Assembly: GCF_014646815.1 (NCBI RefSeq)
Contig: NZ_BMNZ01000003.1
Location: forward strand, 372,001 to 436,000
Origin: Terrabacter tumescens
Lineage (GTDB): Bacteria; Actinomycetota; Actinomycetes; Actinomycetales; Dermatophilaceae
Reading direction: 5' to 3'
Length of the DNA: 64,000 bases
The notes below the pieces were generated by a model. It had not been told where the DNA came from. It searched no databases and saw only the letters and a list, made by a program, of their open reading frames with translations. This document shows, one piece after another, positions 6,272-62,706 of this stretch; the first letter of the stretch is position 1; the number at the start of each line of letters is the position of its first letter. The position numbers and the translations under genes are program-made.

Positions 6272-6312
6272 CCCACCCGACCTGGGCACACGGCATACGC
6301 CGTCCGGGAACG

Positions 6313-6347
6313 ACGAAGGCCCCCGAGCAGTGCTCGGGGGCCTTCGT
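6313..6347. terminator. Bidirectional intrinsic terminator between convergent genes
   Basis: Perfect GC-rich hairpin: left arm ACGAAGGCCCCCGAGC, right arm GCTCGGGGGCCTTCGT, 3-nt loop. It serves the secreted protein gene and rpsI. A CGGCATAC 8-mer (6291-6298) precedes it. Confidence 0.85.
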
Positions 6348-6369
6348 GCACACCAGCTGGGCAGCCAGG

Positions 6370-6876
6370 TCAGCGCTTGCTGTACTGGGGAGCCTTGCGG
6401 GCCTTCTTGAGACCGGCCTTCTTGCGCTCCGGGACGCGCGGGTCGCGCGTGAGGAAGCCGGCCTTCTTGAGGGCGGGACGGTTCAGCTCCTCGTCCACAC
6501 CGTTGAGCGAGCGGGCGACGCCGAGGCGCACCGCGCCGGCCTGGCCGGAGGGGCCACCGCCGTGCACGCGGACGAGCACGTCGTAGGAGCCGTCGAGCTC
6601 GAGGAGCGTCAGCGGCTCCTTGACGATCTGCTGGTGGACCTTGTTGGGGAAGTAGGCGTCGAGCGTGCGGCCGTTGATCTTCCACTCGCCGGTGCCGGGG
6701 ACGATGCGCACGCGGGCGATGGCCTGCTTGCGACGACCGGTCGCAGCGCCGGGGGTCGAGACCTGGCGCGCACGCTTCGGCTCGCCGAGGGCGGAGTCGG
6801 ACGAGGACTCGCTGGTGTACTCGGTCAGCTCGGGCTCGTCGGTGTCGAGGACTTCCTCGTTCACGATGTCAGTCAC
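6370..6876 (-). CDS. rpsI: Small ribosomal subunit protein S9
   Basis: Structural protein of the 30S head whose C-terminal tail reaches the P-site tRNA. 168 aa with the expected [21 protein letters not shown] and terminal QYSKR motifs. The first 40 or so residues form an acidic Ser/Glu-rich extension that is common in actinobacterial S9. Second gene of the L13-S9 operon, 35 bp after rplM. Confidence 0.97.
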
Positions 6877-6911
6877 GTGTCTTGTCGCTTTCTACGCAGC
6901 AGCCGGGGGGC

Positions 6912-7355
6912 TTACTGCGCAACCTGGGTGATCTCGAAGGGGACGGGCTGCTGGGCCGAGTGCGGGTGCTCGGCACCGCGGTAGACCTTGAGCTTGGAGA
7001 GCTGCTGGCGGGCCAGCGAGTTCTTCGGCAGCATGCCGCGGATGGCCTTCTCGACGGCCTTCTCGGGGCTCTTGGCGAGCAGCTCGGTGTAGGAGGTCGA
7101 GCGCAGACCGCCCGGGAAGCCCGAGTGGCGGTAGGCCTTCTTCTGCTCGAGCTTGGCACCGGTGAGGGCGACCTTCTCGGCGTTGATGATGATGACGAAG
7201 TCACCGGTGTCGACGTGCGGCGCGAACTGCGGCTTGTGCTTGCCCCGGAGCAGGACAGCGGCCTGGCTCGCGAGACGGCCGAGCACGACGTCGGTCGCGT
7301 CGATGACGTGCCACGTGCGAGTGACCTCGCCGGGCTTCGGGGTGTACGTACGCAA
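6912..7355 (-). CDS. rplM: Large ribosomal subunit protein L13
   Basis: 50S assembly protein; 147 aa. The start is a TTG at 7355, giving [18 protein letters not shown], the standard actinobacterial N-terminus; an AAGGCAGA ribosome site precedes it. Later motifs: [25 protein letters not shown], and RGMLPKN. First gene of the rplM-rpsI operon with a leader of about 130 nt behind a recognisable promoter. Confidence 0.96.
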
Positions 7356-9700: not shown

Positions 9701-10642
9701 TCAGCCCTCGGGAGTGGTGATCTCGTCGAGGGCGGCGAGGTCGGAGATGCTGGGCTGCCACAGGCCCGCCTGCACGTTGTCGAGCACCTGCTCGGGCTTG
9801 GTCGCGCCGGCGATGACCGAGGCCACGGCCGGCTGGGCCGCGAGCCCGCCGATGGCGACGTCGATGAGGCGCAGACCCCGCTCCGCGGCATACCCCTCGA
9901 GTCGTTCGATCGTGTCCCAGTCCGCCGTGTCGAGGCGGTCGGCCATCGAGGCGAGACGGGTGCCCTGGGGCGCCTCCTCGCCCCGGCGGTACTTGCCCGT
10001 CAGCAGACCCGACGCGAGGGGGAAGAACGGCAGCAGGCCGACGCCCACGTGCTCACAGGCGGGAACGAGCTCGTCCTCGACGTCGCGCTCGAGGAGGGAG
10101 TACTCGTTCTGCGCCGAGACGAAGCGCTCGGTGCCGGCGGCGCGAGCGGTCCAGTCGGCGTCGACGACCTGCCAGCCGGTGAGGTTGCTGCTGCCGATGT
10201 AGCGCACCTTGCCCTCGCGGACGAGCTCGTCGAGCGCAGCGAGGGTCTCGCCGATCGGCGTGTGCGGGTCGGGCCGGTGCAGCTGGTAGAGGTCGATCCA
10301 GTCGGTGCCGAGGCGACGCAGGCTCGCCTCGACCGCGGTCCGCACGTAGCGCCGCGAGCCCCGCACGCCCCAGTCGGGCCCGTTGACCCCCTGCATGTCC
10401 ATGCCGAACTTCGTTGCCACCACGACCTGCTCGCGCCGGTTGCCGAGGGCTGCACCGAGCAGCTCCTCGCTCGCACCGAGGCCGTAGATGTCGGCCGTGT
10501 CGAAGAGCGTCACGCCCGCGTCGATGGCGGCGTTCACGACCGCGGTCGTGCCCTCCTGGTCCAGGCGTCGCCCGAAGTTGTTGCAGCCGAGGCCGACCGT
10601 CGAGACGGTCAGACCGCTGTCGCCGAGCTGTCGGTAGGTCAT
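9701..10642 (-). CDS. Aldo/keto reductase
   Basis: 313 aa NADPH-dependent oxidoreductase fold. Catalytic tetrad positions are visible: Asp and Tyr in FDTADIYG, Lys in VATKFG, His in LYQLHRPD. The cofactor-binding C-terminal region includes ASVIAGATKPEQV. Closest in look to the YajO/TAS-like subgroup. ATG at 10642 (MTYRQLGDSGL) matches the family N-terminus. Monocistronic; physiological substrate unknown. A CGGCATAC 8-mer lies 34 bp upstream of the start, at or near the expected -10 position. Confidence 0.9.
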   Translation of the reverse strand: MTYRQLGDSGLTVSTVGLGCNNFGRRLDQEGTTAVVNAAIDAGVTLFDTADIYGLGASEELLGAALGNRREQVVVATKFGMDMQGVNGPDWGVRGSRRYVRTAVEASLRRLGTDWIDLYQLHRPDPHTPIGETLAALDELVREGKVRYIGSSNLTGWQVVDADWTARAAGTERFVSAQNEYSLLERDVEDELVPACEHVGVGLLPFFPLASGLLTGKYRRGEEAPQGTRLASMADRLDTADWDTIERLEGYAAERGLRLIDVAIGGLAAQPAVASVIAGATKPEQVLDNVQAGLWQPSISDLAALDEITTPEG

Positions 10643-10727
10643 GTCGTTCGTCGCACGTGTCGTCACCCGACCAACGTATGCCGCGTGGCGGGCTCGCGAC
10701 AGGTCGGCCCGGTGGGCGTCGGGGACG

Positions 10728-11132
10728 TCAGCAGGCGGGGCCGCAGCCCTGCGGCGTGGTGAGCCGGCGGACCAGGGCGAAACCTGCGAGCACGAGGGCC
10801 AACGAGGCCGTGCCACCGTCTCGGGCCGACGTCAGCGCGACGCCCGCGCCTGCGACGGTGGCCGCCACGTCGACCACCGCGCACGACCCACGGAGCCGCG
10901 CGAGCAGACCCTCCCCGGATGACGGGACGAAGCTCGATGTGGCTGCAGCAGCGGCGGCCAGGGCTGCGAGCACGAGGAAGGACCACAGCGGCGCCGTCGT
11001 GAACGCCCACCCCTGCGTCACGGTGGCCAGCAGCACGAGGGCAGCGAGCAGGACACCGAAGGCCACCCGGCGGCGCACGGGCCAGCGCTCCGCCGTGGTC
11101 GTCGGCGTGGTTGCCGCGCTTCGTGTCGCCAT
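10728..11132 (-). CDS. Small membrane protein with Cys-containing C-terminus, under a CsoR-like operator
   Basis: 134 aa with about three to four hydrophobic segments (residues 25-45, 52-66, 85-104, 112-125) and a tail TTPQGCGPAC carrying two cysteines. The family is not recognised with certainty; YgaP/DUF2892-like or DoxX-like small membrane proteins are comparable. ATG at 11132 was chosen because a -10-like TATACC and the palindromic operator sit directly over it; upstream in-frame sequence has no coding look. The operator suggests control by a CsoR-family sensor (copper or persulfide), which would fit exposed cysteines. Function is inference. Confidence 0.6.
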   Translation of the reverse strand: MATRSAATTPTTTAERWPVRRRVAFGVLLAALVLLATVTQGWAFTTAPLWSFLVLAALAAAAAATSSFVPSSGEGLLARLRGSCAVVDVAATVAGAGVALTSARDGGTASLALVLAGFALVRRLTTPQGCGPAC

Positions 11133-12184: not shown

Positions 12185-12281
12185 GGCCCGAGCGTATGCC
12201 GCCCGCCCCGCCCCGCGCCCACGGGTCCGTGGCCGCCGGGCCCGCCTCACGGCATACGGCCTCGGCGGCCGCGACTGCGGC

Positions 12282-14120
12282 TCAGGGGCGCCAGGTGTCG
12301 TTGAGCGTCAGCGTCCCCGACGCCGGCACCGTGACCGTGCGGTTGGCCCCCGACTCCCACGTGACCGTGCCGGGGGAGTCCTTGCGGAGGTACTTGTACT
12401 GCACGACGGTCCCGGGCGTGAGGGCGACCGTGCGGCGCCAGACCGGGTAGGTCGCCGGGTCGAGCTTGAGAGCGGATGCCGGCGCCCACGCGCCGAGGGC
12501 CGCGTTGTCGCCCGCGACGTAGATGTCCTGGCCGACGGACGTCGTGGCGTTGACGCCGAAGCTCACCGAGGCCGTGGCCGGGACCGCCGAGGTGACGGCG
12601 CCGACGTGCAGGGCGATCGTCTCGTTGGCGCCGACCGTCGCGGTGAACGTCCCCGACGAGCCGACGGTGTACGTCGCGGCCGAGCAGGTGCCCGAGCTGA
12701 CGGTGCCGTGGGTGACGTCGCAGTACGTGCCGGCGGGCAGCGAGGTCTGGAAGGTCGAGGTCACGGGGCCCGACTCGTGGTTGACGACGACGTAGCCCTT
12801 GGCGCCGCGGCCGAAGGCGATGGCGTTGTTGCCGTTGCTCCACCAGTTCGTCACGGCCGTGCCGGCGACGGTGTTGCGGAAGCCCACCATGCCGGCGATC
12901 TGGCCCCACGCGTGCTGGCACTTCCAGCCGTCGGAGTAGCAGGCGTTGACCGCGCCGCCGAGGGGCGGCCCGGCGTCGGCGTCGGTCCACTCGTAGCCGG
13001 AGAAGACGTTGGGGGCGCCGTAGGGCCAGGCCAGCATGAAGACGTTGGCGAGCGCGTAGGTCGCGCCCGCCTTGTAGTTCAGGGTCGAGCCGTTGCGCTC
13101 GGTGTCCCAGTTGTCGACGAACGTGCGGGCGTTGCCGCTCGCCAGGTAGCCCCACGAGGCGCCCCAGTTGCTGAGGTAGCTGAGCTTCTCGCTCGTGAAG
13201 ACGCGCTTGAGGTCGTATGCCGCGCGGAACTCGTCGACGTCGCCCGACCCCGTGTACTCGGTGGGCTGCACGGCCTCGCCGGCGCCGTAGATCACCTCGT
13301 GGACCCAGAAGATGTTCGGGTTGGTCAGCTTGGCCTTGATCGCCGCGAGGTCGGTGACGGCGACGTGCTTGGCCGCGTCGATGCGGAAGCCGTCGACACC
13401 GAGCCCGATGAGGGTGTTGAGGTAGCCGGCGATCGCGCCGCGCACGTAGTCGCTGCCGGTGTCGAGGTCGGCGAGGCCGACGAGCTCGCAGGTCTGGACG
13501 TTGGTGCGGTCGGCGTAGTTGCTGATGTTCTGCCGGCAGGTGTGGAAGTCGCGGTCGGAGTAGACGCTGGGGTAGGCGTACTTCGTGTAGCTGCTGCCGG
13601 CGGTGCCCGTGCCGGAGCCGGCGCTCATGTGGTTGACGACGATGTCGGAGACGACCTTGACCCCGGCGTTGTGGCAGGCCGTCACCATGTTCTTGAAGGC
13701 GGTCTGGTCGCCGAGCCGGCCACCGATCTTGTAGCTGACGGGCTGGTAGGACGTCCACCACTGGGAGCCCTGGATGTGCTCGGCCGCGGGCGAGACCTCG
13801 ACGAAGCCGTAGCCCTTGGGTCCGAGGACGTCGGTGCACTCGCGGGCGACGGCGTCGTAGCGCCACTCGAAGAGCGTCGCCGTGACGTCCTTGCTGCCGG
13901 GCGGGGTCGCGGCGGCCTGCTGAACGACGGCTCCGGGACCGCTCGTGGGGCCGGCGACGGACCACCCGACGGCGGCGACGGCGGCCAGGGCCCCCACGAC
14001 GAGACGGGCGCGGTGCCGCGTCCGTCTCCGGGCCGGTGCTTCGACAGGCGGGACGGGCGGGGCGATCGGATCGGTCGGGGCCGGCGGAGCAGGTGGGACA
14101 GACGATCTGGGCAGGCGCAT
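12282..14120 (-). CDS. Secreted alpha-amylase, GH13 with C-terminal CBM20 starch-binding domain
   Basis: 612 aa enzyme hydrolysing alpha-1,4 bonds of starch outside the cell. A Pro-rich start precedes a basic stretch and a hydrophobic segment (residues about 38-57) acting as signal or anchor. Catalytic domain residues about 78-420: region [11 protein letters not shown] (nucleophile Asp248), region [12 protein letters not shown] (acid/base Glu275), region IV FVDNWD (Asp339; Trp replaces the usual His, as in the actinobacterial GH13_32 group). A beta-sandwich follows, then a CBM20-like domain (about 510-612) with [17 protein letters not shown] and [10 protein letters not shown]. Upstream palindrome GCAAG-AA-CTTGC suggests LacI/MalR-type control. 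The neighbouring pullulanase is broken. Confidence 0.94.
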
Positions 14121-14259: not shown

Positions 14260-15309
14260 TCAGTGGGAGAGCTCGGCGACGACCGTCGCCGCCGGCACCG
14301 CCCGCGCCGACTGCCACCCGGTGCCTGCCCAGAGCGCGAGCAGGTCGGGCCGCTCGGCCCGGGCCGACGCCCGGCGCAGCGGCACGGTCAGGTGGTGCAC
14401 CTCGGGGTAGGCGGCGGGGGCGTGCCCGTCGTGGCGGCGCAGGAACTCGGTCTCGAGGCCGCGTGCGAGCCGGCCCGAGTAGGCCCGGGTCACGGCGGTG
14501 CGCTCGTAGGCGGGGTCGGCGAGCGCCCGCCGGTAGGCCAGGCCGGTCCCGGCCTCCGGTGTCAGCAGCAGGGCGGTCCCGACCTGCACGGCGTCGGCGC
14601 CGACGGCCCTGACCTGCGCGGCCCGCTCAGCGGTCGAGATGCCGCCCGCGGCCACGAGCGGCACGTCCGTCTGCGACCGGACGGCCACGACGAGGTCGAT
14701 GAGGTCACCACCCGAGGGCTGCTTGACCGGGTCGAGCGTGCCGCGGTGCCCGCCGCCGTCGGGCCCCTGGAGGCAGAGCCCGTCGACGCCCGCCGCCAGC
14801 GCGGCAGCCGCCTCGTCGACGTCGGTGACCGTGGCGACCGTCTCGATCCCGGCCCGCCGCAGCTCGCCGAGCACGGCCTGGCTCGGGAGCCCGAACGTGA
14901 AGGACACCAACGGGATTCGCTCCCGGACGACGAGGTCGAGCTTGCGCTCCCAGTCGTCATCGTCCCCCGGGCGCGCCTCCCCCGGCTCGACGCCCAGCTC
15001 CTGGGCGTCCCCCAGCAGCGACTCCCGGTAGGCCGCGACGGCGTCCGCGCGGGCCGCGCCGGTCAGCTCCCCCGACCCCACGGCATACGCATTCGCCTGC
15101 GCGGGCACGAAGAGGTTGACCCCGAACGGGCGGGACGACGCGTCCCACACCTCGGCGATCGCCGCCGCGAGCTGCGGCGCGGTGAGGTAGCCACCGGCCA
15201 GCAGGCCGAGGCCACCGCCCTCACCGACCGCGGCGACGAGCTCGGGTGTCGTGGGCCCCCCGGCCATCGGGGCGCCCACGACGCCGGTCTCGAGCGATCG
15301 CAGCAGCAT
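14260..15309 (-). CDS. Nitronate monooxygenase (2-nitropropane dioxygenase family)
   Basis: 349 aa FMN-dependent TIM-barrel enzyme that oxidises toxic nitronates such as propionate-3-nitronate. Motifs: VGAPMAGGPTTPEL at the N-terminus, LCLQGPDGGGHRG (phosphate/flavin-binding loop with the catalytic His), VPLVAAGGISTAE, and GADAVQVGTALLLT. Length and motif order are those of actinobacterial class I-like enzymes. Stands alone, 60 bp downstream of the ABC-F gene. Detoxification role comes from family knowledge. Confidence 0.9.
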   Translation of the reverse strand: MLLRSLETGVVGAPMAGGPTTPELVAAVGEGGGLGLLAGGYLTAPQLAAAIAEVWDASSRPFGVNLFVPAQANAYAVGSGELTGAARADAVAAYRESLLGDAQELGVEPGEARPGDDDDWERKLDLVVRERIPLVSFTFGLPSQAVLGELRRAGIETVATVTDVDEAAAALAAGVDGLCLQGPDGGGHRGTLDPVKQPSGGDLIDLVVAVRSQTDVPLVAAGGISTAERAAQVRAVGADAVQVGTALLLTPEAGTGLAYRRALADPAYERTAVTRAYSGRLARGLETEFLRRHDGHAPAAYPEVHHLTVPLRRASARAERPDLLALWAGTGWQSARAVPAATVVAELSH

Positions 15310-17062: not shown

Positions 17063-17114
17063 GCCTGTCGTATGCCGGGTGGCCGCGTCACGCGGTTAAG
17101 CGGCCGTACGGGGC

Positions 17115-21431: not shown

Positions 21432-21478
21432 GGATCCCGTATGCCGTGAAGCGGGCTTCACGGCATACGACGGGATCC
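21432..21478. repeat. Interrupted inverted repeat containing a GTATGCCG/CGGCATAC pair
   Basis: GTATGCCGTGAAGC (21439-21452) pairs with GCTTCACGGCATAC (21455-21468); flanking GGATCCCG (21432-21439) pairs with CGGGATCC (21471-21478) across a 2-base bulge. Located in the 245-bp rpsD-rpoA spacer; could be a terminator, attenuator or processing site. Confidence 0.7.
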
Positions 21479-24283: not shown

Positions 24284-24379
24284 CCACCCACGGTCCCACG
24301 ACCACCGCGCCCCCGAGCCGGTTCGGGGCGTATGCCATGTGCCCGGGTGAGCGGCCGCGCACCGCGGCATACTGGCCGG

Positions 24380-26839: not shown

Positions 26840-28291
26840 TCAGGCGTACGACCAGCGCGTCGCGAGCCACAGCGGGTCGTAGCCGGTGAGCGGCACCATG
26901 CGCCACGTCAGGTCGGCGTCCGAGCTGCGCAGCCGGGCCTCGATGCGGAAGCGGTGCGGCGACTCGATGGCGATGACCTCGGCCCGGAACGTGTCCTCGT
27001 CGACCCAGCCCCCGCTCGCGACGACCGGCAGCGTGGCTCCCCCGGCGACGATCTCGCCCTCGCTCCACAGGCCCCGACCGACCGGCACCCGCAGCCACTC
27101 GCCGCGGCGGTTCAGCCCCAGCACGAAGTCGGCTCCGTCCCGCGTCACGGAGACCGCCGTGTAGTCGGCGGCCAGGTCGGAGGCGCTCGCACGGGAGAAC
27201 TCGGCGTGGTCCGGTCCCAGCGCGTCGCCCGACATCGCGGGGATCTCGAGGCCGGCGAGCCGCTCGGCGAGCGCGCGGTCGGCGGCCTCCGACTCCCCCG
27301 ACCCCGCCGGGCCGCCCCGGCCGATGGCCGGCACGAGGTGCTCCCACAGCAGGTCGAGGGTCGACTGCATGCGGGACTGCTCGGCCGTGATGGCGACGAC
27401 CGTGTCGTGCTCCGGCAGCACGACGAGGAACTGGCCGTAGGCGCCGTCACCGCGGTAGCCCACGCGCTGCATCCAGAAAGAGTAGCCGTAGCCGCGGCGC
27501 CAGTCGTCGTCGGCGCCCGGGTCCTCGTTGAGCGGGCCGAAGGCGCGCGTGGCCTCCTCGACCCAGGCCTCGGAGAGCAGCTGCCGCCCCTGCCACCGCC
27601 CGCGGTCGAGGTAGAGCTGGGCGATGGAGGCGATGGCCTCCGTGGTCAGGTGCGAGCCGGTGAAGCCGAGCTCGCGGCCCGCGGGGTCGCGGTCCCACGG
27701 GATGTCGGGAAGCCCCAGGGGTGCCAGCAGCCGCGGGCGCAGCATCTCGGCGACGCCGACCCCGGCGACGCGGCCCACGATGACGGACAGCAGGTAGGTC
27801 GCGACCTGGTTGTAGGCGAAGACCGTGCCGGGCGTCCGGGTGGGAGTCGTCGCGAAGACCCGCGGCACCCAGTCGCGGGTGTCGCCGAAGTCGCTGCCGC
27901 TCATCCGGTCGAAGACCTGCGGCCACGCGTCCTGCTCGTGGCCGACCGTCATCGAGAGGCAGTGCCGCACCCGCACGTCGTCCCAGCCGGGCGCGACGGC
28001 GCTCCGGTCGAGCTCCGGGAAGTGGTCGAGCACGCGGTCGTCGAGCGACAGGCGCCCCTCCTGCACGAGGAAGCCGACGGCGGTGGCCGTCACCGTCTTG
28101 GAGAGGGAGTACGCGAGGTGGACGCGGCTCGCGGCATACGGCCTCCACCAGCCCTCCGCCACGACGTGGCCGTGGCGCACGACCATGAGGCTGTGCAGGC
28201 CGAGACGGTCGCGTTCCGCGGCGTCGACGAGGGCGAGGAGGCCGGTGGCGTCGACGCCCTGCGCCGACAGGGTGCTGCGGGGAAGGCTCAC
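26840..28291 (-). CDS. Serine hydrolase, class C beta-lactamase/DD-peptidase family
   Basis: 483 aa, no evident signal peptide, so probably cytosolic. Catalytic SxxK is SLSK (about residue 63) in HLAYSLSKTVTATA; the Tyr of YxN is in VFAYNQVATYLLS. C-terminal third (from about 330) is a separate beta-rich domain. Family members are esterases, peptidases or beta-lactamases; lack of a secretion signal argues against classical antibiotic resistance. Lies 69 bp downstream of map. Confidence 0.85.
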   Translation of the reverse strand: MSLPRSTLSAQGVDATGLLALVDAAERDRLGLHSLMVVRHGHVVAEGWWRPYAASRVHLAYSLSKTVTATAVGFLVQEGRLSLDDRVLDHFPELDRSAVAPGWDDVRVRHCLSMTVGHEQDAWPQVFDRMSGSDFGDTRDWVPRVFATTPTRTPGTVFAYNQVATYLLSVIVGRVAGVGVAEMLRPRLLAPLGLPDIPWDRDPAGRELGFTGSHLTTEAIASIAQLYLDRGRWQGRQLLSEAWVEEATRAFGPLNEDPGADDDWRRGYGYSFWMQRVGYRGDGAYGQFLVVLPEHDTVVAITAEQSRMQSTLDLLWEHLVPAIGRGGPAGSGESEAADRALAERLAGLEIPAMSGDALGPDHAEFSRASASDLAADYTAVSVTRDGADFVLGLNRRGEWLRVPVGRGLWSEGEIVAGGATLPVVASGGWVDEDTFRAEVIAIESPHRFRIEARLRSSDADLTWRMVPLTGYDPLWLATRWSYA

Positions 28292-35765: not shown

Positions 35766-35787
35766 CGGCATACGAGCACGTATGCCG
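35766..35787. repeat. CGGCATACG-AGCA-CGTATGCCG palindrome in rpsQ-rplN spacer
   Basis: Perfect 9-bp arms (35766-35774 and 35779-35787) with a 4-base loop; the recurrent 8-mer of this window in inverted pair form. Directly followed by dispersed element copy B. Confidence 0.75.
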
Positions 35788-38456: not shown

Positions 38457-39293
38457 TCAGCGCTTCTTGCCAGTACGACGGCGACGAACGATGAGCTTGT
38501 CGCTTTCCTTGTGTCCCTTGCGGGTGCGGCCCTCGGCCTGACCCCAGGGGCTGACGGGGTGACGTCCACCGGACGTCTTGCCCTCACCACCACCGTGCGG
38601 GTGGTCGACCGGGTTCATGGCGACACCACGGACGGTCGGGCGCTTGCCCTTCCAGCGCATGCGGCCGGCCTTGCCCCAGTTGATGTTGCTCTGCTCGGCG
38701 TTGCCCACCTCGCCGACGGTCGCGCGGCAGCGCGCGTCGACGTTGCGGATCTCGCCGGACGGCATACGCAGCTGGGCGTAGGGGCCGTCCTTGGCGACGA
38801 GCTGCACGCGAGCACCCGCGGAACGGGCGATCTTGGCGCCGCCACCGGGCTTGAGCTCGATCGCGTGGACCACCGTACCCACGGGGATGTTGCGCAGCGG
38901 GAGGCTGTTGCCCGGCTTGATGTCGGCCGCGGGGCCGTTCTCGATCGGGTCGCCCTGCTTGAGCTTGTTCGGCGCGAGGATGTAGCGCTTCTCGCCGTCG
39001 GAGTACTGCACGAGCGCGATGCGCGCGGTGCGGTTGGGGTCGTACTCGATGTGAGCGACCTTGGCCGGCACGCCGTCCTTGTCATGGCGACGGAAGTCGA
39101 TGACGCGGTAGGCGCGCTTGTGACCGCCACCGATGTGACGCGTCGTGATGCGGCCGGCGTTGTTGCGGCCACCGGTCTTCGTCAGCGGGCGAACCAGCGA
39201 CTTCTCAGGAGTGGTTCGCGTGATCTCGACGAAGTCGGCGACCGACGAGCCACGACGGCCCGGTGTGGTCGGCTTGTACTTGCGGATACCCAT
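38457..39293 (-). CDS. rplB: Large ribosomal subunit protein L2
   Basis: 278 aa 23S-binding protein close to the peptidyl-transferase centre. [55 protein letters not shown] (with the conserved His). Holds the only CGGCATAC 8-mer found inside a ribosomal gene here (38760-38767). Confidence 0.98.
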
Positions 39294-41975: not shown

Positions 41976-42077
41976 GTCTTTATCCTCGCACCCGAGCGGC
42001 GCGCAGGCCGGGTCACCCCTGGCGTATGCCGTCACTCCCCCGTTGCGGTCGACCTCGGTCGCCGGGCGGCGGGGTCG

Positions 42078-43382
42078 TCAGGCCGGCGCGAGGAAGGCAC
42101 TGAGGGCGCGGGCGTACATGGCGGGGTCCTCGGCGCCCATCAGCTCGCGCGTGCTGTGCATGGAGAGTGCCGCCGCTCCGAAGTCGACCGTGGTCGCACC
42201 GGTCAGCGACGACGTCACGGGTCCGACCGTGGAGCCGCACGGCAGGTCGCTGCGGGTGACGAACGTCTGCATCGGCACCCCGGCCTGCTCGCAGGCCGTC
42301 CGGAACGCCGCTGCGCCGATCGAGTCGGTCGCGTAGCGCAGGTTGGTGTTGACCTTGAGGACCGGGCCGCCGTTGACGCGGATCTGGTGCATCGGCTCGT
42401 GCCGTTCGGCGTAGTTCGGGTGGGTCGCGTGGCCCATGTCGCCCGAGGCGATGACGGTCGCGGCGAGGGCGCGCCAGTAGTCGTCGCGGGTGCCCCCACC
42501 GGCGATGACGATGCGCTCGAGGACCGAGGGCAGCAGCGTCGAGGTGGCGCCCCGCTCGGAGGTGCTGCCGATCTCCTCGTGGTCGAACAGCACGAGTACC
42601 GGGACGTGCGCGGGCTCGGTGGCCACGGCGTCGAGCAGGGCCCGCACGCCGGCATACGAGGTCGCGAGGTTGTCGAGGCGAGGAGCCGCGATGAGCTCGC
42701 GGGCGCGCCCGAGTCGCGTCGAGGGCTGGATCGGGTGGGTCATGACGTCCCACGAGAGGACGTCTTCGCGGTCGACGCCGACCTGCTCGGCGAGGTAGCC
42801 GACGAAGTCGCCCGGCTCGTCCCCCACGCCCCACAGCGGCTCCATGTGCGCCTGCTTGTTGAGGCTGAGGGCCTCGTTCTGCGTGCGGTCGAGGTGGATG
42901 GCCAGCTGCGCGACCCTCAGCAGGGCGTCACGTCCGTGGAAGGTGCGCGACTCGACGCCCTCGCGTCCCCGCACGGCCACCCTGCCGGCGAGGCCGAGGT
43001 CGCGGTCGAGCCACGAGCTGAGGATGAGGCCGCCGTAGGGCTCGATGCCGAGCAGCTGCCAGCCGGCGCGGCTGTGGTCGGGGTTGGGCTTGACGCGCAG
43101 GTTGGGGCTGTCGGTGTGGGCACCGACGACGCGGAAGCCCGCGCCGGGCCCGGCGCCCGAGCCGTGCGCGCCCGTCGTGTCCCAGGCGATGAGCGAGCCG
43201 CCGCGCACGAGGTAGTGGCGGCCGGGGGTGGTCGGCCACGGTGCGCGCTCGTCGACCTCGGTGAAGCCCTCGGCGGTGAGCCGCAGCGCGGCCTGCTCGC
43301 ACGCGTGGAACGGGGTGGGGCTCGCGTCGACGTAGTCGATGAGGCCCTGGGCTTCGGTGTCGGTGTCGAAGGAGTGCGCCAT
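42078..43382 (-). CDS. M18-family aminopeptidase
   Basis: 434 aa cytosolic dinuclear-zinc aminopeptidase preferring acidic N-termini in characterised relatives (aspartyl aminopeptidase; apeB-like in bacteria). Ligand regions: VVGAHTDSPNLRVKP (His, Asp), LFDHEEIGS (Glu-Glu), SGDMGHATHPNY (Asp), and AALSMHSTREL (His). ATG at 43382 (MAHSFDTDTEA) decides the start; the frame open further upstream is antisense to the next gene. Divergent from the DUF2785 gene by 60 bp. Confidence 0.93.
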   Translation of the reverse strand: MAHSFDTDTEAQGLIDYVDASPTPFHACEQAALRLTAEGFTEVDERAPWPTTPGRHYLVRGGSLIAWDTTGAHGSGAGPGAGFRVVGAHTDSPNLRVKPNPDHSRAGWQLLGIEPYGGLILSSWLDRDLGLAGRVAVRGREGVESRTFHGRDALLRVAQLAIHLDRTQNEALSLNKQAHMEPLWGVGDEPGDFVGYLAEQVGVDREDVLSWDVMTHPIQPSTRLGRARELIAAPRLDNLATSYAGVRALLDAVATEPAHVPVLVLFDHEEIGSTSERGATSTLLPSVLERIVIAGGGTRDDYWRALAATVIASGDMGHATHPNYAERHEPMHQIRVNGGPVLKVNTNLRYATDSIGAAAFRTACEQAGVPMQTFVTRSDLPCGSTVGPVTSSLTGATTVDFGAAALSMHSTRELMGAEDPAMYARALSAFLAPA

Positions 43383-43442: not shown

Positions 43443-44192
43443 ATGTCCGACGCCACGCTCCGCTCCCTCGTCGACGACCTCGCCTCCCCGGACCCCGCCG
43501 TCCGCGACGAGGGGGCGTATGCCGCCCTGGCGCGACGGGTGCGTGAGGGTGCCGTCTCCGCGGACGACCGGTCGTGGCTGGCCGGGGCGATGCTCGAGCG
43601 GCTCGGTCACGAGCGCGTGGAGGCCCGCGCCTTCGCACCGCTCGTCCTCGCCTCCCTCGTCGCCGCCGGGGACTTCGACGACGCCTGGGTGCCCGCGGTG
43701 TCACGGTGGTACGTCGGCGAGGAGGACCTGCGCGGCCACGACCCCGAGCTGGGTTGGGTTCACGCCGTCGCTCACGGGGCCGACTTCTTCGGCGAGTGCG
43801 GGGCTGCCGGCGTCGGGGACCCGGCCGTGCTGCTCGACGCCCTTGCCCGGCGGCTCGTCGCACCGACCACGTTCGTGTGGAGAGACCAGGAGGACGACCG
43901 CCTCGCCTGCGCCGTCGCGCTCGTGCTGTCGCGCGACGACGTCGACGGGTCGGTGGCCGTCGGATGGCTCGAGCGCGTGCGCTCGATGTTCGCCGCGGGT
44001 GCGCCCGGTGCGGTGCCGGCCGAGGCGAGCAACACGATGCGGACGCTGCGCTCGCTGCACGTCGCCCTGGGTGAGGACGTGCTGCGCGGAGGCGAGCCGG
44101 TCGTGGTGCCGCACGCAGGCCTCGTCCGTCGGGAGCTCGCCCACCTCCTCGCCGAGGTGACGCCGTGGTTCTGGCGACCGCGCTCGGGCTGA
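43443..44192 (+). CDS. DUF2785-family protein
   Basis: 249 aa, ATG 43443. Helical, HEAT-like repeats with no catalytic motif. LVDDLASPDPAVRDEGAYAA at the start, GWVHAVAHGADFF in the middle (conserved in DUF2785) and LRSLHVALGED near the end. Function unknown. Followed directly by a hairpin and the promoter of the WXG-like gene. A GTATGCCG 8-mer lies in its coding sequence at 43517, using the rare TAT codon. Confidence 0.75.
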   Translation: MSDATLRSLVDDLASPDPAVRDEGAYAALARRVREGAVSADDRSWLAGAMLERLGHERVEARAFAPLVLASLVAAGDFDDAWVPAVSRWYVGEEDLRGHDPELGWVHAVAHGADFFGECGAAGVGDPAVLLDALARRLVAPTTFVWRDQEDDRLACAVALVLSRDDVDGSVAVGWLERVRSMFAAGAPGAVPAEASNTMRTLRSLHVALGEDVLRGGEPVVVPHAGLVRRELAHLLAEVTPWFWRPRSG

Positions 44193-46229: not shown

Positions 46230-46410
46230 ACCGGCATACGAGCCGGAGGAGCGGGGCGGGTGACGTGGGGAGCGGCATCGGAGGCGGCCACCCGGCATAC
46301 GAAAGGACTCGTGCGGCTGGAACCGGCCGCCGACGCTCTCGCCGCTCCCCGCGTCGCACGTCCCGTGACGACCTCGGATGACAGCGGGCGTCTTCGTGGA
46401 GGTGTGCGGA

Positions 46411-51193: not shown

Positions 51194-51303
51194 ATCGGTG
51201 TGACCGGCCCTGACGGCTCCGATGCGGTATGCCGTGTGGCGGGCTCACGCAGCCGGCTCCCCCGGGCGACTCGCGCGGCCCACCACCTCGGTGACGGGCT
51301 GGG

Positions 51304-51998: not shown

Positions 51999-52038
51999 CC
52001 GCTGGGCCGGCTCCCCTGTCGGGAAGCCGGCCCAGCGG
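51999..52038. terminator. Terminator after rpoC
   Basis: CCGCTGGGCCGGCT (51999-52012) pairs with AGCCGGCCCAGCGG (52025-52038); its right arm runs into a CGGCATAC 8-mer (52036-52043). Confidence 0.75.
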
Positions 52039-52098
52039 CATACGTCATGCACGAGAGGTGGTCACCGGCCGCCGCTCACGCGGCGGCCGATGGACCGC

Positions 52099-55995: not shown

Positions 55996-56055
55996 GTGGT
56001 TCCTTCTCTCGTAACTCTTGTTAAGTCTTTGGTCTGAGTGGGATTCGTTGACGAG

Positions 56056-56095
56056 GGTGCGTATGCCGCTGAGCGGGCCCAGCGGCATACGCACC
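56056..56095. repeat. Perfect 16-bp inverted repeat between rpoB and rpoC
   Basis: GGTGCGTATGCCGCTG (56056-56071) and its exact complement (56080-56095), 8-nt loop, containing a GTATGCCG/CGGCATAC pair. A partial terminator or RNase processing site between rpoB and rpoC is plausible. Confidence 0.75.
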
Positions 56096-56116: not shown

Positions 56117-59100
56117 TCAGACCTCTTCGACGCTGGACGGCTCACGCCGGCTCAGGTCGATGCCGAGCTCCTCCGCCGCGCGGAAGACCTCCTCGTCGGA
56201 CTCCTTCATCTCGATCGTCGTGCCGTCGCTGCTCAGGACCTCGACGTTGAGACACAGCGACTGCATCTCCTTGAGGAGGACCTTGAACGACTCCGGGATG
56301 CCCGAGTCGGGGATGTTCTCGCCCTTGACGATGGCCTCGTAGACCTTCACGCGGCCGGGAACGTCGTCCGACTTGATCGTCAGCAGCTCCTGGAGCGTGT
56401 AGGCGGCGCCGTACGCCTCGAGGGCCCAGACCTCCATCTCACCGAAGCGCTGGCCACCGAACTGGGCCTTACCGCCGAGCGGCTGCTGGGTGATCATCGA
56501 GTACGGACCCGTCGAACGAGCGTGGATCTTGTCGTCGACGAGGTGGTGGAGCTTGAGGATGTACATGTAGCCGACGGCGACGGGCTCCGGGAACGGCTCG
56601 CCGGAGCGGCCGTCGAAGAGGCGCGTCTTGCCCGAGGCGTCGATGAGGCGGACCCCGTCGCGCGTCTTGAGCGTCGAGTCGAGCAGACCCGTGACGACGT
56701 CCTCGGAGGCACCGTCGAAGACCGGCGTCGCCACGCGCGTGCCCGCAGGGGCCTCGTGCGCGTCGGGCGCGATCTCCTTGGCCCACTCCGGGCTGCCCTC
56801 GATCTTCCAGCCGCGCGAGGCGGCCCAGCCGAGGTGCAGCTCGAGGATCTGGCCGAGGTTCATCCGTCGCGGCACACCGTGCGGGTTGAGCACGACGTCG
56901 ACCGGCGTGCCGTCCTCGAGGAAGGGCATGTCCTCGACCGGGAGGATCTTGGAGATGACTCCCTTGTTGCCGTGGCGGCCGGCGAGCTTGTCACCGTCGG
57001 TGATCTTGCGCTTGTTGGCCACGTAGACGCGGACGAGCTGGTTGACGCCGGGCGGCAGGTCGTCGCCGAGGTCGGCACGGAACTCCTTGACGCCGATGAC
57101 CGTGCCGGTCTCGCCGTGGGGCACCTTGAGGCTCGTGTCGCGGACCTCGCGGGCCTTCTCACCGAAGATGGCGCGCAGCAGGCGCTCCTCCGGCGTCAGC
57201 TCGGTCTCTCCCTTGGGCGTGACCTTGCCGACGAGCAGGTCGCCGTCGCGGACCTCGGCACCGACGCGGATGATGCCGCGCTCGTCGAGGTCGGCCAGGA
57301 CCTCCTCGGAGACGTTCGGGATGTCCCGCGTGATCTCCTCGGGGCCGAGCTTGGTGTCACGGGCGTCGACCTCGTGCTCCTCGATGTGGATCGAGGAGAG
57401 GACGTCGTCCTGGACCAGGCGCTGGCTGAGGATGATGGCGTCCTCGTAGTTGTGACCCTCCCACGACATGAACGCGACGAGCAGGTTGCGCCCGAGCGCC
57501 ATCTCGCCACCCTCGGTGGCGGGACCGTCGGCGATGACGCCGCCGGCCTCGAGACGGTCACCCTCGTTGACGACGACCACCTGGTTGTAGCTCGTGCCCT
57601 GGTTGGAGCGCGCGAACTTGGCGATGCGGTACGTCTGGTAGGTGCCGTCGTCGTTGGCGACGGTGACGAGGTCGGCCGAGACCTCCTGGACGACACCGGC
57701 CTTCTCGGCACGGACGACGTCGCCCGAGTCGAGGGCGGCGCGGAACTCCATGCCGGTGCCGACGATCGGCGCCTCGCTCTTGACGAGCGGGACGGCCTGA
57801 CGCTGCATGTTGGCGCCCATGAGGGCACGGTTGGCGTCGTCGTGCTCGAGGAACGGGATCATCGCGGTCGCGGCCGAGACCATCTGGCGCGGCGAGACGT
57901 CCATGTAGTCGACCTCGTCGCCGGGGACGAGCTCGACCTCTCCACCCTTGGTGCGCACGAGCACGCGGTCCTCGGTGAAGTTGTTCTGCTTGTCGAGCGG
58001 CGCGTTGGCCTGGGCGACGACGTAGCGGTCCTCCTCGTCGGCGGACAGGTAGTCGACGTCGTCGGTCACGTGGCCGCCGGTCACCTTGCGGTACGGCGTC
58101 TCGATGAAGCCGAACGCGTTGATGCGACCGTAGGACGCGAGCGAGCCGATGAGGCCGATGTTCGGGCCTTCCGGGGTCTCGATCGGGCACATGCGGCCGT
58201 AGTGCGACGGGTGGACGTCACGGACCTCCATCTGGGCACGGTCACGGGAGATACCACCCGGGCCGAGCGCGGACAGACGACGCTTGTGCGTCAGACCCGC
58301 GAGCGGGTTGTTCTGGTCCATGAACTGCGAGAGCTGCGACGTGCCGAAGAACTCCTTGATCGAGGCCACCACGGGGCGGATGTTGATCAGGGTCTGCGGG
58401 GTGATCGCCTCGACGTCCTGCGTGGTCATGCGCTCGCGGACGACGCGCTCCATGCGGGACAGGCCGGTGCGGACCTGGTTCTGGATGAGCTCGCCGACGG
58501 AGCGGAGGCGACGGTTGCCGAAGTGGTCGATGTCGTCGACCTCGACGCGGACGTCGATCTCCTCGTCGTTCTTCGTGCCCTTCATCGAGTCCTGGCCGTC
58601 GTGCAGCGTGACGATGAACTTGATCGTCTTGACGATGTCGTCGATCGACAGGGTCGAGTCGTTGATCGAGGCGTCGAGACCGAGCTTCTTGTTCACCTTG
58701 TAGCGGCCGACCTTGGCGAGGTCGTAGCGCTTGCCGTTGAAGTAGAGGTTGTCGAGCAGGGTCTGCGCGGCCTCCTTGGTCGGCGGCTCCCCCGGGCGCA
58801 GCTTGCGGTAGATGTCGAGCAGCGCGTCGTCCTGGCCCTGGGTGTGGTCCTTCTCCAGGGTGAGGCGCATCGACTCGAACTCGCCGAACTCCTCGAGGAT
58901 CTGGGCCTCGGTCCAGCCGAGGGCCTTGAGGAGCACCGTGACCGACTGCTTGCGCTTGCGGTCGACGCGGACGCCGACCATGTCGCGCTTGTCGATCTCG
59001 AACTCGAGCCAGGCGCCGCGGCTCGGGATGATCTTGGCCGTGTAGATGTCCTTGTCGGACGTCTTGTCGGGCGTGCGCTCGAAGTAGACGCCCGGGCTGC

Positions 59101-59599
59101 GGACGAGCTGCGAGACGACGACACGCTCGGTGCCGTTGATGATGAAGGTGCCGCGCTCGGTCATGAGCGGGAAGTCACCCATGAAGACCGTCTGGCTCTT
59201 GATCTCACCCGTCTGGGCGTTCATGAACTCGGCGGTGACGAAGAGGGGTGCGTCGTACGTCTGGTCGCGCTCCTTGCACGACTCGATCGTCTTGCGGGTC
59301 TCCTCGAAGCGGTGGTCGCGGAACGACAGCGACATGGAGCCGCTGAAGTCCTCGATCGGGGAGATCTCCTCGAAGATCTCCTCGAGCCCGGACCGGTCCG
59401 GGACGTCGGTGCGTCCCTCGGCCTTGGCCGCGGCGACGCGAGCCTGCCAGCGCTCGTTGCCGAGCAGCCAGTCGAAGCTCTCCGTCTGAAGCGCCAGGAG
59501 GTCGGGGACCTCGAGTGGTTCGCGAATCTTCGCGAAGGACAGACGCCCCGAAGGGGTCTGTGCGGTGGACATGTTCGTCGCAGTACGCGAGGCAGCCAA
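56117..59599 (-). CDS. rpoB: DNA-directed RNA polymerase subunit beta
   Basis: 1160 aa. TTG at 59599 chosen: GGAAGGA lies seven bases upstream and it yields [13 protein letters not shown], the usual actinobacterial start; GTG at 59614 is possible. Rifampicin region [31 protein letters not shown] has the wild-type Asp, His and Ser at the common resistance positions. Further hallmarks: [59 protein letters not shown]. Promoter at 59752-59780. Confidence 0.99.
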
Positions 59600-60099
59600 G
59601 GAGGGTCCTTCCACGGGCCTTTTTCGAATCTTCAGATCCGCGTTGCCGCATGGCTCCGCTCGCGGGTCCCGAGGTCAGACCGGATGCCGCGTGGCATGGT
59701 GAGTGGCCTGACCGAGGTCGCGAGAGGTGGGCATGGGCAGCGCAAAGGCCTAGCCTACCCACAAAGGGCAGGAGTGTCCAGCCGGGTCAAGGAGCGGAGG
59801 TCCCCGTCCGAGGTCCCGTCCGGTCTCGAAACGAGACGGACGCCCTCGACTGACCTGCCACGCCCCCTGGACCGGGAGCTCGCGATGCGAACGCGACGAA
59901 TATGGACCCCCGCGGGGCCGACGTCAAGACCCGGGCCTCTTCAGGCGCGTCGCGACACGCCGCCGGGACGCTCCCGCAACCCCGCTGACCTGCGCCGATG
60001 TTGTCGCGGCGCGCGCGGACCCGGGGTCGCTGGAAGGGCCGCGCCCTAGCATGGGCACACACGAGAGATCTGTCGACGTCTCCTGCCGAGAGGGAAGCC
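59600..60099. other. 500-bp divergent regulatory region between rpoB and the DUF4282 gene
   Basis: No gene supported. Carries the rpoB promoter and about 145 nt of leader; on the plus strand a TAGCAT (60047-60052) could be the -10 of the DUF4282 gene, but no good -35 is seen. Confidence 0.6.
59752..59780 (-). promoter_or_regulatory. Sigma-A type promoter of rpoBC
   Basis: On the minus strand TGGACA (59775-59780) and TAGGCT (59752-59757) with a 17-bp spacer; a further TTGACC lies just upstream. Confidence 0.6.
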
Positions 60100-60627
60100 A
60101 TGTCCGATCAGAACCCGCCCGAGCAACCGTCCTTCAACCGGCCGGCCGGTGGGGACCCCACCACGCCGATCCCGAGCAGCTCGGGCGTCCCCCAGAGCGT
60201 CCCGCCCCCCAGCAGCCCCCCGCCCTCCCCCGCGCCGGGCGCCGGCAGCACGCCGCCCCCTCCTCCGCCGCCGGTGGCACCGGTCGGCGCGCCCTCGGGC
60301 GGACCGAGCGGCATGTCGAGCATCCCCGACCCCGCCAAGGAGGGCGCGGGCTTCTTCACCGCGCTGTTCGACTTCAGCTTCACCAACTTCGTCACGCCGA
60401 TCCTCGTGCGCTTCGTCTACCTGCTGGCGACGGTGGCGCTCGTGGCGACCTGGCTGATCTTCGTCTTCGCCGGCTTCGCCAACAGCGCCGGGGCCGGCTT
60501 CGCGGCGCTGATCCTCGGGCCGATCTTCGTCATCATCTACCTCGCGGTCATCCGCATGACCCTCGAGTTCTACCTCTCGGTCGTGCGCATGAGCGAGGAC
60601 ATCCACAAGCGGCTCCCGCAGGCCTGA
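60100..60627 (+). CDS. DUF4282-type membrane protein with Pro-rich N-terminus
   Basis: 175 aa, ATG 60100 after AGAGGGAAGCC. Residues 1-75 are a Pro/Ser/Gly-rich cytosolic or surface arm, including a run of seven prolines. Then FFTALFDFSFTNFVTPILV, a hydrophobic helix (about 105-127) and a second helix (about 133-155), ending EFYLSVVRMSEDIHKRL; this matches DUF4282. Function unknown. Confidence 0.8.
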   Translation: MSDQNPPEQPSFNRPAGGDPTTPIPSSSGVPQSVPPPSSPPPSPAPGAGSTPPPPPPPVAPVGAPSGGPSGMSSIPDPAKEGAGFFTALFDFSFTNFVTPILVRFVYLLATVALVATWLIFVFAGFANSAGAGFAALILGPIFVIIYLAVIRMTLEFYLSVVRMSEDIHKRLPQA

Positions 60628-60636
60628 CCTCCACCT

Positions 60637-60712
60637 GGTCGAGTGCTCACTTCCGGACAGTCACGGACAAGACGGTCTTCGCCGCGGAACGTCCGGAAGT
60701 GAGCACTCGACC
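60637..60712. terminator. Inverted repeat with 22-bp perfect arms between convergent genes
   Basis: Arms 60637-60658 and 60691-60712 are exact reverse complements (GGTCGAGTGCTCACTT...), 32-nt loop. It fills the gap between the DUF4282 stop and the agmatine deiminase stop. Confidence 0.7.
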
Positions 60713-61747
60713 TCAGAGGGACGGCTGCTGCTGGGTGATGCAGTGGATGCCACCGCCGCGGTCGAAGAGCGGACGCGCGTCGACCCCGACGACCCGGCGT
60801 CCGGGGTAGGCCTCGGCCAGGACGGCGAGGGAGGCCTCGTCCTGCTCGTCACCGAACGTGCAGGCGATGACCCCGTCGTTGACGACGAGGTGGTTGATGT
60901 AGGACCAGTCGACCGGGCCCTCGTCGTCGACGAGGGTCCGCGGCGCCGGCACGCCCACGACCTCGAACCGCTCGCCCCGCGCGTCCCTGGCGTCCTCGAG
61001 CACCTCGCGCAGCGCCTTCGAGACCGCGTGGTCGGGGTGCGAGGGGTCCTGCTGCTCGTGGAGCAGCACGACGCCGGGGCTCGGGATCGTGGCGACGATG
61101 TCGACGTGGCCGCGGGTGCCGAACTCGTCGTAGTCACGGGTGAGGCCGCGCGGCAGCCAGATGCACGTCGTGGCGCCGATGGTGCGGGCGAGCTCCGCCT
61201 CGACGTCGGCCCTGGTCAGGCCGGGGTTGCGTCCCGGGTCGAGCTGCACCGTCTCGGTGAGCAGCACGGTGCCGAGCCCGTCGACGTGGAGGCCGCCACC
61301 CTCGTTGACGAGGGACGAGCCCACGACCTCGGCGCCGCTCAGGCCTCCGACGAAGGCGCCGATGCGCGCGTCGTGCTCCCAGCTGGCCCAGGCCTGGGCG
61401 CCCCAGCCGGTGAAGACCCAGTCGACCGCGCCCAGCCGCGCACCGTCGGCGGAGCGCACGAACGTCGGGCCGATGTCGCGCATCCAGGCGTCGTCGAGGG
61501 CCGCCGGGACGAGCTCGACGTCCGGGTGCAGCAGCGCCTCGGCGACCGCGAGGTCGCCCGGCACGACGACCATGCGCACCGGCTCGAACTCGGCGACGGC
61601 GTTGGCGACAGCGGCCCAGGTGCGGCGAGCCGTCTCGACCTCGTCGGGGGTCTCGCCCAGCGTGTAGCCCTGGCTCGGCCACGCCATCCACGTGCAGTCG
61701 TGTTGCGCCGTCTCGGACGGCATGACCCAGGCGGGGGCGCCGGTCAC
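60713..61747 (-). CDS. aguA: Agmatine deiminase (peptidylarginine-deiminase-like)
   Basis: Hydrolyses agmatine to N-carbamoylputrescine and ammonia. 344 aa. PSETAQHDCTWMAWPSQ, DDAWMRDIGPTFV (substrate Asp), SLVNEGGGLHVDG, TRGHVDIVATI (catalytic His) and catalytic Cys in GGGIHCITQQQP. GTG 61747 overlaps the stop of the amidase gene (GTGA), so the pair is coupled. Porphyromonas-type PAD homologues are ruled out by length and context. Confidence 0.93.
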   Translation of the reverse strand: MTGAPAWVMPSETAQHDCTWMAWPSQGYTLGETPDEVETARRTWAAVANAVAEFEPVRMVVVPGDLAVAEALLHPDVELVPAALDDAWMRDIGPTFVRSADGARLGAVDWVFTGWGAQAWASWEHDARIGAFVGGLSGAEVVGSSLVNEGGGLHVDGLGTVLLTETVQLDPGRNPGLTRADVEAELARTIGATTCIWLPRGLTRDYDEFGTRGHVDIVATIPSPGVVLLHEQQDPSHPDHAVSKALREVLEDARDARGERFEVVGVPAPRTLVDDEGPVDWSYINHLVVNDGVIACTFGDEQDEASLAVLAEAYPGRRVVGVDARPLFDRGGGIHCITQQQPSL

Positions 61748-62706
61748 TGCTCCGCCTCGCGACGGTGCTCGTCGCGCACGGGTGCGGTCAGGGCGGCATA
61801 CGAGTCGGGACGGCGCGTCTCGAGGAAGGGGAAGAGCTCGAGCCAGTCGCGGCGCTGCGCGAGGTCGAGGTCGGCGACGAGGACGGCGGCCTCGTCGCGG
61901 GGGGCCTGGACGAGGACGCGACCGTAGGGGTCGGAGATGAAGGAGCTGCCGTAGAAGGTGATCAGGCCCTCGGTGCCGAAGCGGTTGGGCACGACCATGA
62001 ACAGACCGTTGGCGATGCCGTTGCCGACGATCACCTGCTGCCACAGCGGCTGGGTGTCGAAGTCGGGGTGGTCCGGCTCCGAGCCGATGGCCGTGGGGTA
62101 GCACAGCACCTCGGCGCCGCCGAGGGAGTAGAGCCGCGCGACCTCGGGGAACCACTCGTCCCAGCAGGTCGGCAGACCGAGCCGCAGCGAGGGGTCCTCG
62201 AGGGCCACCACGGGGTACGCGTCGTCGGCCGGACCGGGACGGAAGTACTTGTCCTCGTAGTAGCCGGCCGTGACCGGGATGTGGGTCTTGCGGGTGCGGG
62301 CCACGACCTCGCCGGACGGCGCCACGACGACGGCGGTGTTGAAGCCGAGGCCGTCGCCCTGCTCAGCACGCTCGTAGAGCGAGGCGTGCACGTGGACCCC
62401 GAAGTCGCGGGCGGCGGCGCGCGCGAAGGTGACCGTCGGGCCGGACTCGAGGTCCTCCGCCGTCGCCGACGGGGTGCCCTCGGGGAGGGTGTCGGCCGGG
62501 TAGCGCGAGAGCGTCAGCTCGGGCAGGAACACGATCGCGGCCCCCGCCTCGGCCGCGGTGCGGATGCCGTCCCGGAGCGTCTCGACGAGCTCAGCGGGGT
62601 CGTCGACCCATTCGTGCTGGACGAGCGCGACGCGCACGGGTGGCGCCTGCGGCTGGTCGACGCGTGCGAGGGACTCTGGGACGCCATTGGCCTGGATGAG
62701 CTTCAC
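61744..62706 (-). CDS. aguB: N-carbamoylputrescine amidase (nitrilase superfamily)
   Basis: Converts N-carbamoylputrescine to putrescine, CO2 and ammonia, completing agmatine use. 320 aa, GTG 62706. Nitrilase triad: Glu in FLPELTLSRY, Lys in TRKTHIPV, Cys in GLPTCWDEWFPE. GYYEDKYFRPG and GSEPDHPDFDT are typical of AguB. The first 25 residues are extra. Upstream leader holds dispersed element copy D. Confidence 0.92.
   Translation of the reverse strand: MKLIQANGVPESLARVDQPQAPPVRVALVQHEWVDDPAELVETLRDGIRTAAEAGAAIVFLPELTLSRYPADTLPEGTPSATAEDLESGPTVTFARAAARDFGVHVHASLYERAEQGDGLGFNTAVVVAPSGEVVARTRKTHIPVTAGYYEDKYFRPGPADDAYPVVALEDPSLRLGLPTCWDEWFPEVARLYSLGGAEVLCYPTAIGSEPDHPDFDTQPLWQQVIVGNGIANGLFMVVPNRFGTEGLITFYGSSFISDPYGRVLVQAPRDEAAVLVADLDLAQRRDWLELFPFLETRRPDSYAALTAPVRDEHRREAEQ

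Follow-up and report, generated by a model that had tools for sequence, protein, structure and literature searches.

Uptake sequences are reported only for the Neisseriaceae and the Pasteurellaceae (PMC12616744). Here we describe a non-palindromic 8-mer, CGGCATAC/GTATGCCG on the two strands, which is strongly over-represented in a 64-kb stretch of the actinobacterium Terrabacter tumescens (contig NZ_BMNZ01000003.1, positions 372,001 to 436,000; the whole stretch is called the window) and throughout its genome, G000. From sequence comparison we consider it likely that this motif is a DNA uptake sequence (DUS), belonging to a third, independent system in Gram-positives that is probably served by a Tad pilus. 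Searches of the open-access literature returned nothing relevant on an actinobacterial uptake sequence or on the 8-mer itself.

The Neisseriaceae carry 943 to 5918 DUS copies per genome (PMC3630211). As in the present case, DUS occur as dialects that share a core, with one two-dialect genome and some members without any (PMC3630211); they form inverted repeats, which serve there as terminators (PMC12616744) and are predicted to form hairpins here; and their distribution is atypical in integrated elements (PMC7371117). The present motif differs in belonging to another phylum (Actinomycetota) and in lacking the DUS core CTG within its eight bases; the type IVa marker PilM_2, moreover, is missing in G000 and in 144 of the family's 149 genomes (ComP was not searched for). 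The uptake signal sequence (USS) of the Pasteurellaceae is also an abundant short non-palindromic motif, with two types and inverted repeats, but it is unrelated in sequence and extends to at most 32 nt with AT-rich parts, against about 8 nt here (PMC12616744). Cyanobacterial HIP1 is a very frequent 8-mer that is replaced in some lineages; it is palindromic and tied to methylases, and the abstract of PMC4390886 names no link to a pilus or to competence. In the actinobacterium Micrococcus luteus, genes of two tad loci are required for Flp/Tad-dependent transformation (PMC4322843); the phrase "uptake sequence" is absent from the main text of that paper.

The features shared with DUS and USS are copy number, strand symmetry, dialects with a core, hairpin pairs near gene ends, depletion in mobile elements (three tadA inserts) and the presence of ComEC and ComEA. 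The motif would work like DUS or USS; it is not the Neisseria system itself. The 10-mer and 12-mer DUS, ATGCCGTCTGAA and GCCGTCTGAA, had 0 occurrences in 464 kb of G000. An enriched word, GTATGCCGTC, shares ATGCCGTC with AT-DUS; homology to the Neisseria DUS was rejected and the match taken as a coincidence.

All 25 copies of the 8-mer and all 26 copies of the 7-mer within it that the original prediction counted in the window are present, the 8-mers at the coordinates given there and the sole 7-mer without the 8-mer extension lying at position 24330. In 100 dinucleotide shuffles of the window the 8-mer occurred 0.97 times on average and 4 times at most, and the third-order Markov expectation was about 1.0. 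The GC content of the window is 69.8%, not 72% as assumed earlier; with independent bases 2.3 copies would be expected. In the whole of G000 (4.71 Mb, 23 contigs), 1200 forward and 1158 reverse copies were found (2358, about one per 2 kb), compared with 88 and 111 for the reversed word used as a control. A 464-kb sample of G000 contained 226 copies against 10.5 from a third-order Markov model, making it the top 8-mer by z-score among words with at least six occurrences. Neither of the two outcomes that would have refuted the original prediction was obtained: the motif is not confined to the window, and in the 464-kb sample, on which the Markov comparison was made, it is not at the level that such a model gives.

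The signal is sharp. In 400 kb of G000, GTATGCCG was found 201 times against 9.5 expected (21-fold), and 16 of its 24 one-base neighbours were at or below expectation; the remainder were at most 3.3-fold above it (CTATGCCG, 10 against 3.1; GGATGCCG, 79 against 41.8; GTACGCCG, 30 against 19.6). The flanks are weak, with A preceding in 46% and G following in 66% of copies, so that the signal is essentially eight bases. Other words enriched in G000 (464 kb including the window) were CTCCCCCG (102 against 23.6), which also ranked high in several relatives, and the overlapping GGGGGAGT (36 against 4.1).

Both strands carry the motif equally. In the 400 kb, 99 copies were on the plus and 102 on the minus strand, the most uneven 50-kb bins being 13:7 and 10:15, which agrees with the earlier view that the motif is non-polar. 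Spacing was more even than random: the coefficient of variation was 0.81 with pairs merged, a value as low being reached in 7 of 5000 random placements, and motif counts in 5-kb bins had a variance of 1.35 at a mean of 2.51. According to coding calls from a home-made gene finder using codon-position GC, 155 of the 226 sites in the 464 kb lie inside predicted coding sequence, on either strand; density was 0.83 per kb in noncoding and 0.41 per kb in coding DNA, a twofold difference. Of these genic sites, 87 are read as G-TAT-GCC-G (Tyr-Ala) and 31 as NCG-GCA-TAC. The earlier proposal that selection acts on the DNA is backed, in the form of selection or drive.

Inverted pairs GTATGCCG...CGGCATAC no more than 60 bp apart were found 8 times, against 1.65 expected from a simple product, and the opposite arrangement (CGGCATAC...GTATGCCG) twice. 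Six of the eight are located within 75 bp 3' of a predicted stop codon. Of the ten pairs, five were folded, and every one of these gave a strong predicted hairpin, with z-scores of -4.4 to -11.2. The sites and pairs of the window are listed in Table 1. The mechanically called rpoC open reading frame (ORF; 52099-56094, minus strand) covers the last pair, its start being taken as too long. Inverted pairs in relatives were searched for via exact 7-mers, a method that did not recover the motif of G000 and whose blanks are uninformative.

Table 1. Copies of the 8-mer in the window, with predicted hairpins of the inverted pairs
Feature	Position	Strand	Location	Hairpin (kcal/mol; z)
CGGCATAC	6291..6298	+		
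CGGCATAC	9886..9893	+	aldo/keto reductase gene 9701-10816 (-)	
CGGCATAC	10676..10683	-	aldo/keto reductase gene 9701-10816 (-)	
CGGCATAC	12194..12201	-	left half of GTATGCCG...CGGCATAC pair, directly 3' of alpha-amylase gene	
CGGCATAC	12250..12257	+	right half of pair begun at 12194	
CGGCATAC	13215..13222	-	alpha-amylase gene 12282-14120 (-)	
CGGCATAC	15081..15088	+	nitronate monooxygenase-family gene 14260-15309 (-)	
CGGCATAC	17070..17077	-	intergenic, adjoins ABC-transporter gene 15371-17062 (-)	
GTATGCCG N14 CGGCATAC	21439..21468		between rpsD (21567-22175, -) and rpoA (20290-21321, -)	-25.4; -5.7
CGGCATAC	24365..24372	+	outside predicted genes	
CGGCATAC	28132..28139	+	Beta-lactamase (Pfam PF00144) family gene 26840-28291 (-)	
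CGGCATAC N6 GTATGCCG	35766..35787		between ribosomal genes S17 (35855-36145, -) and L14 (35288-35656, -)	-18.1; -4.4
CGGCATAC	38760..38767	+	ribosomal protein L2 gene 38457-39293 (-)	
CGGCATAC	42024..42031	-	5' end of DCC1-like ORF 41577-42035 (-)	
CGGCATAC	42650..42657	+	M18 aminopeptidase gene 42078-43610 (-)	
CGGCATAC	43517..43524	-	M18 aminopeptidase gene 42078-43610 (-)	
CGGCATAC	46232..46239	+		
CGGCATAC	46293..46300	+		
CGGCATAC	51227..51234	-	outside predicted genes	
CGGCATAC	52036..52043	+	outside predicted genes	
GTATGCCG N14 CGGCATAC	56061..56090		26 bp 3' of rpoB stop (56117-59614, -), before rpoC	-34.4; -6.6
CGGCATAC	61794..61801	+	carbon-nitrogen hydrolase gene 61744-62778 (-)	

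The family set comprised 149 genomes from 53 genera. The nearest named relative is Humibacillus; NCBI places H. xanthopallidus in the Intrasporangiaceae, Micrococcales, whereas the name Dermatophilaceae in GTDB covers a wider group. RpoB of the window (56117-59614) is 97% identical to that of Humibacillus xanthopallidus and at most 82% identical to those of the other listed loci. Within the 23 kb of the corresponding Humibacillus locus there are 14 sites, and each of 83 other compared loci has one at most. Counts of CGGCATAC over the family genomes were bimodal. With class thresholds chosen after the counts were seen, 97 of the 149 genomes (37 genera) were motif-rich, 6 weak and 46 without the motif ("none"); by dialect, the rich genomes were 80 AC, 10 GTAC, 5 CC and 2 AC+CC. 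A sample of the order contained 218 genomes, 16 of them family members. The other 202, from 19 families, held at most 88 CGGCATAC per strand; their counts often exceeded the reversed-word control, in most cases by no more than about threefold.

At least four dialects (GTATGCCG, GGATGCCG, GAATGCCG and GTACGNCG) share a core, and a genus sometimes has several. When 8-mers were ranked in ten CGGCATAC-poor relatives, the one-base variant GGATGCCG surfaced in two. Forward copies of its complement CGGCATCC number 1850 in G016, 1960 in G064 and 1972 in G026, and range from 983 to 2222 in the four genomes of genus g45 (family maximum 2222/2258); other genomes have 662 at most. Two of the g45 genomes, G044 and G079, additionally hold about 600 CGGCATAC per strand. 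CGGCATTC was counted 1574/1561 times in G012 (control 8/19) and 363/367 times in G051, and at most 219 times per strand elsewhere. Ten genomes (G023, G024, G040, G048, G054, G069, G077, G081, G102 and G107) have 1684 to 4406 forward copies of CGNCGTAC, with a maximum of 4406/4413, and the others have no more than 1344. In 20-kb samples there are hints of GTATGNCG (G003, G004, G035 and G099) and of GTATGCCN (G047). No dominating motif was seen in samples of 40-100 kb each from G002, G008, G009, G010, G014, G041, G083 and G125. Words of another kind were abundant in two genomes: G037, which has no Tad-1 tadA (L165, L194-L197), has CGAAGGGG 97 times against 12.6 and many C/G runs, and the close relative G028 without the motif (L164, L190-L193) has the palindrome GACGCGTC 106 times against 34.9, about threefold, on both strands.

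Dialects differ within genera. Genus g26 contains AC and GTAC (GTACGNCG) species, g3 GTAC and none, g36 AC and none, and g45 both mixed (AC+CC) and pure CC genomes; in g36, G125 has no motif despite motif-bearing congeners. In a tree built from the ComEC of 46 genomes, two changes are required for CC, a reading to be taken loosely with 13 open forks. At single sites, three of nine GTATGCCG sites of G025 align with G069, and all three are GTACGCCG there; 2 of 15 GGATGCCG sites of G016 are GTATGCCG in G039, one of them also in G000. Against such swaps in place, two G016 sites stay GGATGCCG in an AC relative. Because dialects switch within genera, a drive linked to one reader protein is favoured over site-by-site selection, and this is the strongest argument that we have.

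ComEC was found in 145 and TadE in 144 of the 149 family genomes, and because both are nearly universal their presence was uninformative as a discriminator of motif-rich genomes. ComEA adjoins ComEC in 45 of the 46 genomes read, the exception (G118) being a 3.6-kb contig, and G000 also has domain evidence for both. PilM_2 occurs in just 5 of the 149 genomes, and the type IVa pilus was rejected as partner. With the intact Tad-1 ATPase gene tadA at L217:6622-7887 as reference, 18 of the 149 genomes had no substantial Tad-1 tadA. These are 14 of the 46 motif-poor genomes, 3 of the 97 motif-rich ones and 1 of the 6 weak ones (Fisher 8e-6 when motif-poor is compared with motif-rich, kinship between genomes being ignored). 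In six genera no genome has a Tad-1 tadA, and each of these genera is motif-poor. Motif-poor genomes can, however, have ComEC and Tad as well, so the machinery does not predict the motif; some motif-poor genomes with tadA may use overlooked dialects, or none. One neighbour of comEA, with 16 members, at first looked restricted to motif-rich genomes; it proved to be plsY, an acyltransferase gene, and is only a clade marker because it is also present in G069. Elsewhere in G000, at G000:C1:835949-836074, there is a piece of 41 residues with 76% identity to Tad-1 tadA.

An insert of about 5.5 kb interrupts the tadA gene of G000 (L213:12597-18690, contig C6) at the Walker A codons; it encodes a G2P-like replication protein and, at the junction, a serine recombinase. 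In 13 of 131 tadA-bearing genomes (G000, G028, G007, G146, G130, G122, G120, G105, G111, G035, G135, G143 and G137), the gene is divided into pieces that keep their order on a single contig and are separated by 3.9 to 78.6 kb. Incomplete genes that reach a contig end or are spread over several contigs (such as those of G017, G021, G095 and G108) do not enter this count, and in G035 the match of the shorter piece is weak (47% identity). The insertion points lie at about six different places, so the gene is a hot spot for insertions. A serine recombinase stands next to a tadA piece in all three inserts scanned (G000, G130 and G143). None of 43 paralogous tad ATPase places in the 22 genomes of the tadA-piece survey was split by kilobases, the pieces in G085 and G108 being less than 100 bp apart. 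Among 19 genomes picked for an odd ComEC search result or as comparison, comEC was split at query residues 182-191 in G080 (40 kb), G117 (89 kb) and G049 (28 kb), and at the same site in G095 with the pieces on different contigs. The tadA inserts of G000, G135 and G143 (76 kb read) contain 8 motifs against 44.6 expected, about fivefold depletion. Genes resembling restriction or defence functions are found in tadA inserts (L238:6272-11212; L235-L237): the G135 insert has a DNA methylase and a ResIII helicase, and the G143 insert has a helicase, QueC, a PTPS-family gene and a folE2-family gene, which could be a 7-deazaguanine pathway.

A DNA uptake sequence, the best supported of the possibilities listed in the original prediction, would join these observations as follows. 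The motif would be a self-mark on extracellular DNA, recognised during natural transformation. A component of the cell surface with sequence specificity, for which a minor pilin of Tad-1 (Flp) is the most plausible candidate, would bind DNA bearing it, and this DNA would pass through ComEA and ComEC to recombination. Biased import would fill the genome with the motif over time, a molecular drive, and where the specificity of the receptor shifted the motif would follow, giving dialects. Elements that integrate into tadA or comEC would stop transformation and so would be protected from being recombined out. Elements that disrupt competence genes elsewhere among bacteria have been interpreted as inhibiting transformation (PMC4774983). 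The fuller statement, a third independently evolved uptake system, the first in Gram-positives, read by Tad (Flp), with at least four dialects and in conflict with elements that integrate into tadA and comEC, is in our judgement rather probable, if a little less assured than the uptake function as first stated. The tadA hot spot is useful on its own as evidence of an element-versus-competence conflict in actinobacteria.

Several points weigh against an uptake sequence read by Tad-1. The tadA of G000 is interrupted, and therefore its motif would be a legacy or would depend on excision. The Tad-1 association ignores phylogeny and uses classes thresholded after the counts were seen; tadA is present in 32 of the 46 "none" genomes, and G047, G092 and G087 (73% complete) are motif-rich without a substantial tadA. 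In G047 all that may be left of Tad-1 tadA is a 29-residue stretch; the gene was perhaps lost recently, before the motif could decay. The recombinase is confirmed at 3 of the 13 split tadA genes, and motif content is known from three inserts only. The majority of motif sites are unshared between relatives. The GTACGNCG dialect partly coincides with common codon pairs, and its intergenic share in G048 (34/181) is not above the noncoding share, although that in G069 (67/228) is. The receptor is represented by candidates only, the Tad-1 minor pilins proposed by analogy. To our knowledge, no uptake or transformation experiment exists for any family member, and a literature search for one turned up none.

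The main rival is a HIP1-like motif, in which a methyltransferase would modify the site, methylation-coupled repair or conversion would make and keep the copies, and a change of methylase would change the motif. HIP1 itself is very frequent, has alternate motifs in some lineages and tracks methylases (PMC4390886), and a change of specificity would suit one-base dialects. However, the motif here is non-palindromic, unlike HIPs, and this explanation predicts neither inverted hairpin pairs, nor absence in genera without Tad-1 tadA, nor interruptions of tadA and comEC; we regard it as unlikely. Slightly less likely again is site-by-site selection of binding sites for a protein of the nucleoid or of chromosome organisation. 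It would fit the even, genome-wide spacing on both strands, but thousands of sites would have to change together at each dialect switch within a genus (g26, g45), some congeners have no motif (G125 in g36), and the hairpin pairs and the Tad-1 association are left without a reason. Neither a nucleoid site nor a methylation target accounts for dialects, Tad-1 association and hairpin pairs together.

A regulatory element, such as an operator, a transcription terminator or the -10 box suggested earlier, would be in keeping with hairpin-forming pairs near gene ends. The placement of 155 of 226 sites in predicted coding sequence on either strand speaks against the -10 box and largely refutes the whole class, and the copy number, about 2400, is too high for a single regulator, which makes this explanation very improbable. 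The three folded hairpins of the window separate same-strand neighbours in ribosomal-protein and RNA-polymerase clusters, and use as terminators is at most secondary. An artefact of composition or codon usage, to which the 87 of 155 genic sites read as Tyr-Ala might point, is taken as refuted by the counts and has a negligible chance, since density is twofold higher outside genes, the reversed control is about twelvefold lower, and the high-GC relatives G001, G045 and G069 (GC 71-75%) have only 9-17 CGGCATAC per strand.

If the motif is a DNA uptake sequence, self-marks evolve repeatedly, this case coming from a different phylum in which most of the family has no type IVa pilus, and natural transformation would be widespread in these soil actinobacteria. 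With dialects that switch across dozens of genera, the receptor would be findable by co-variation. Adding a species' own motif would be a hint for DNA delivery in the laboratory.

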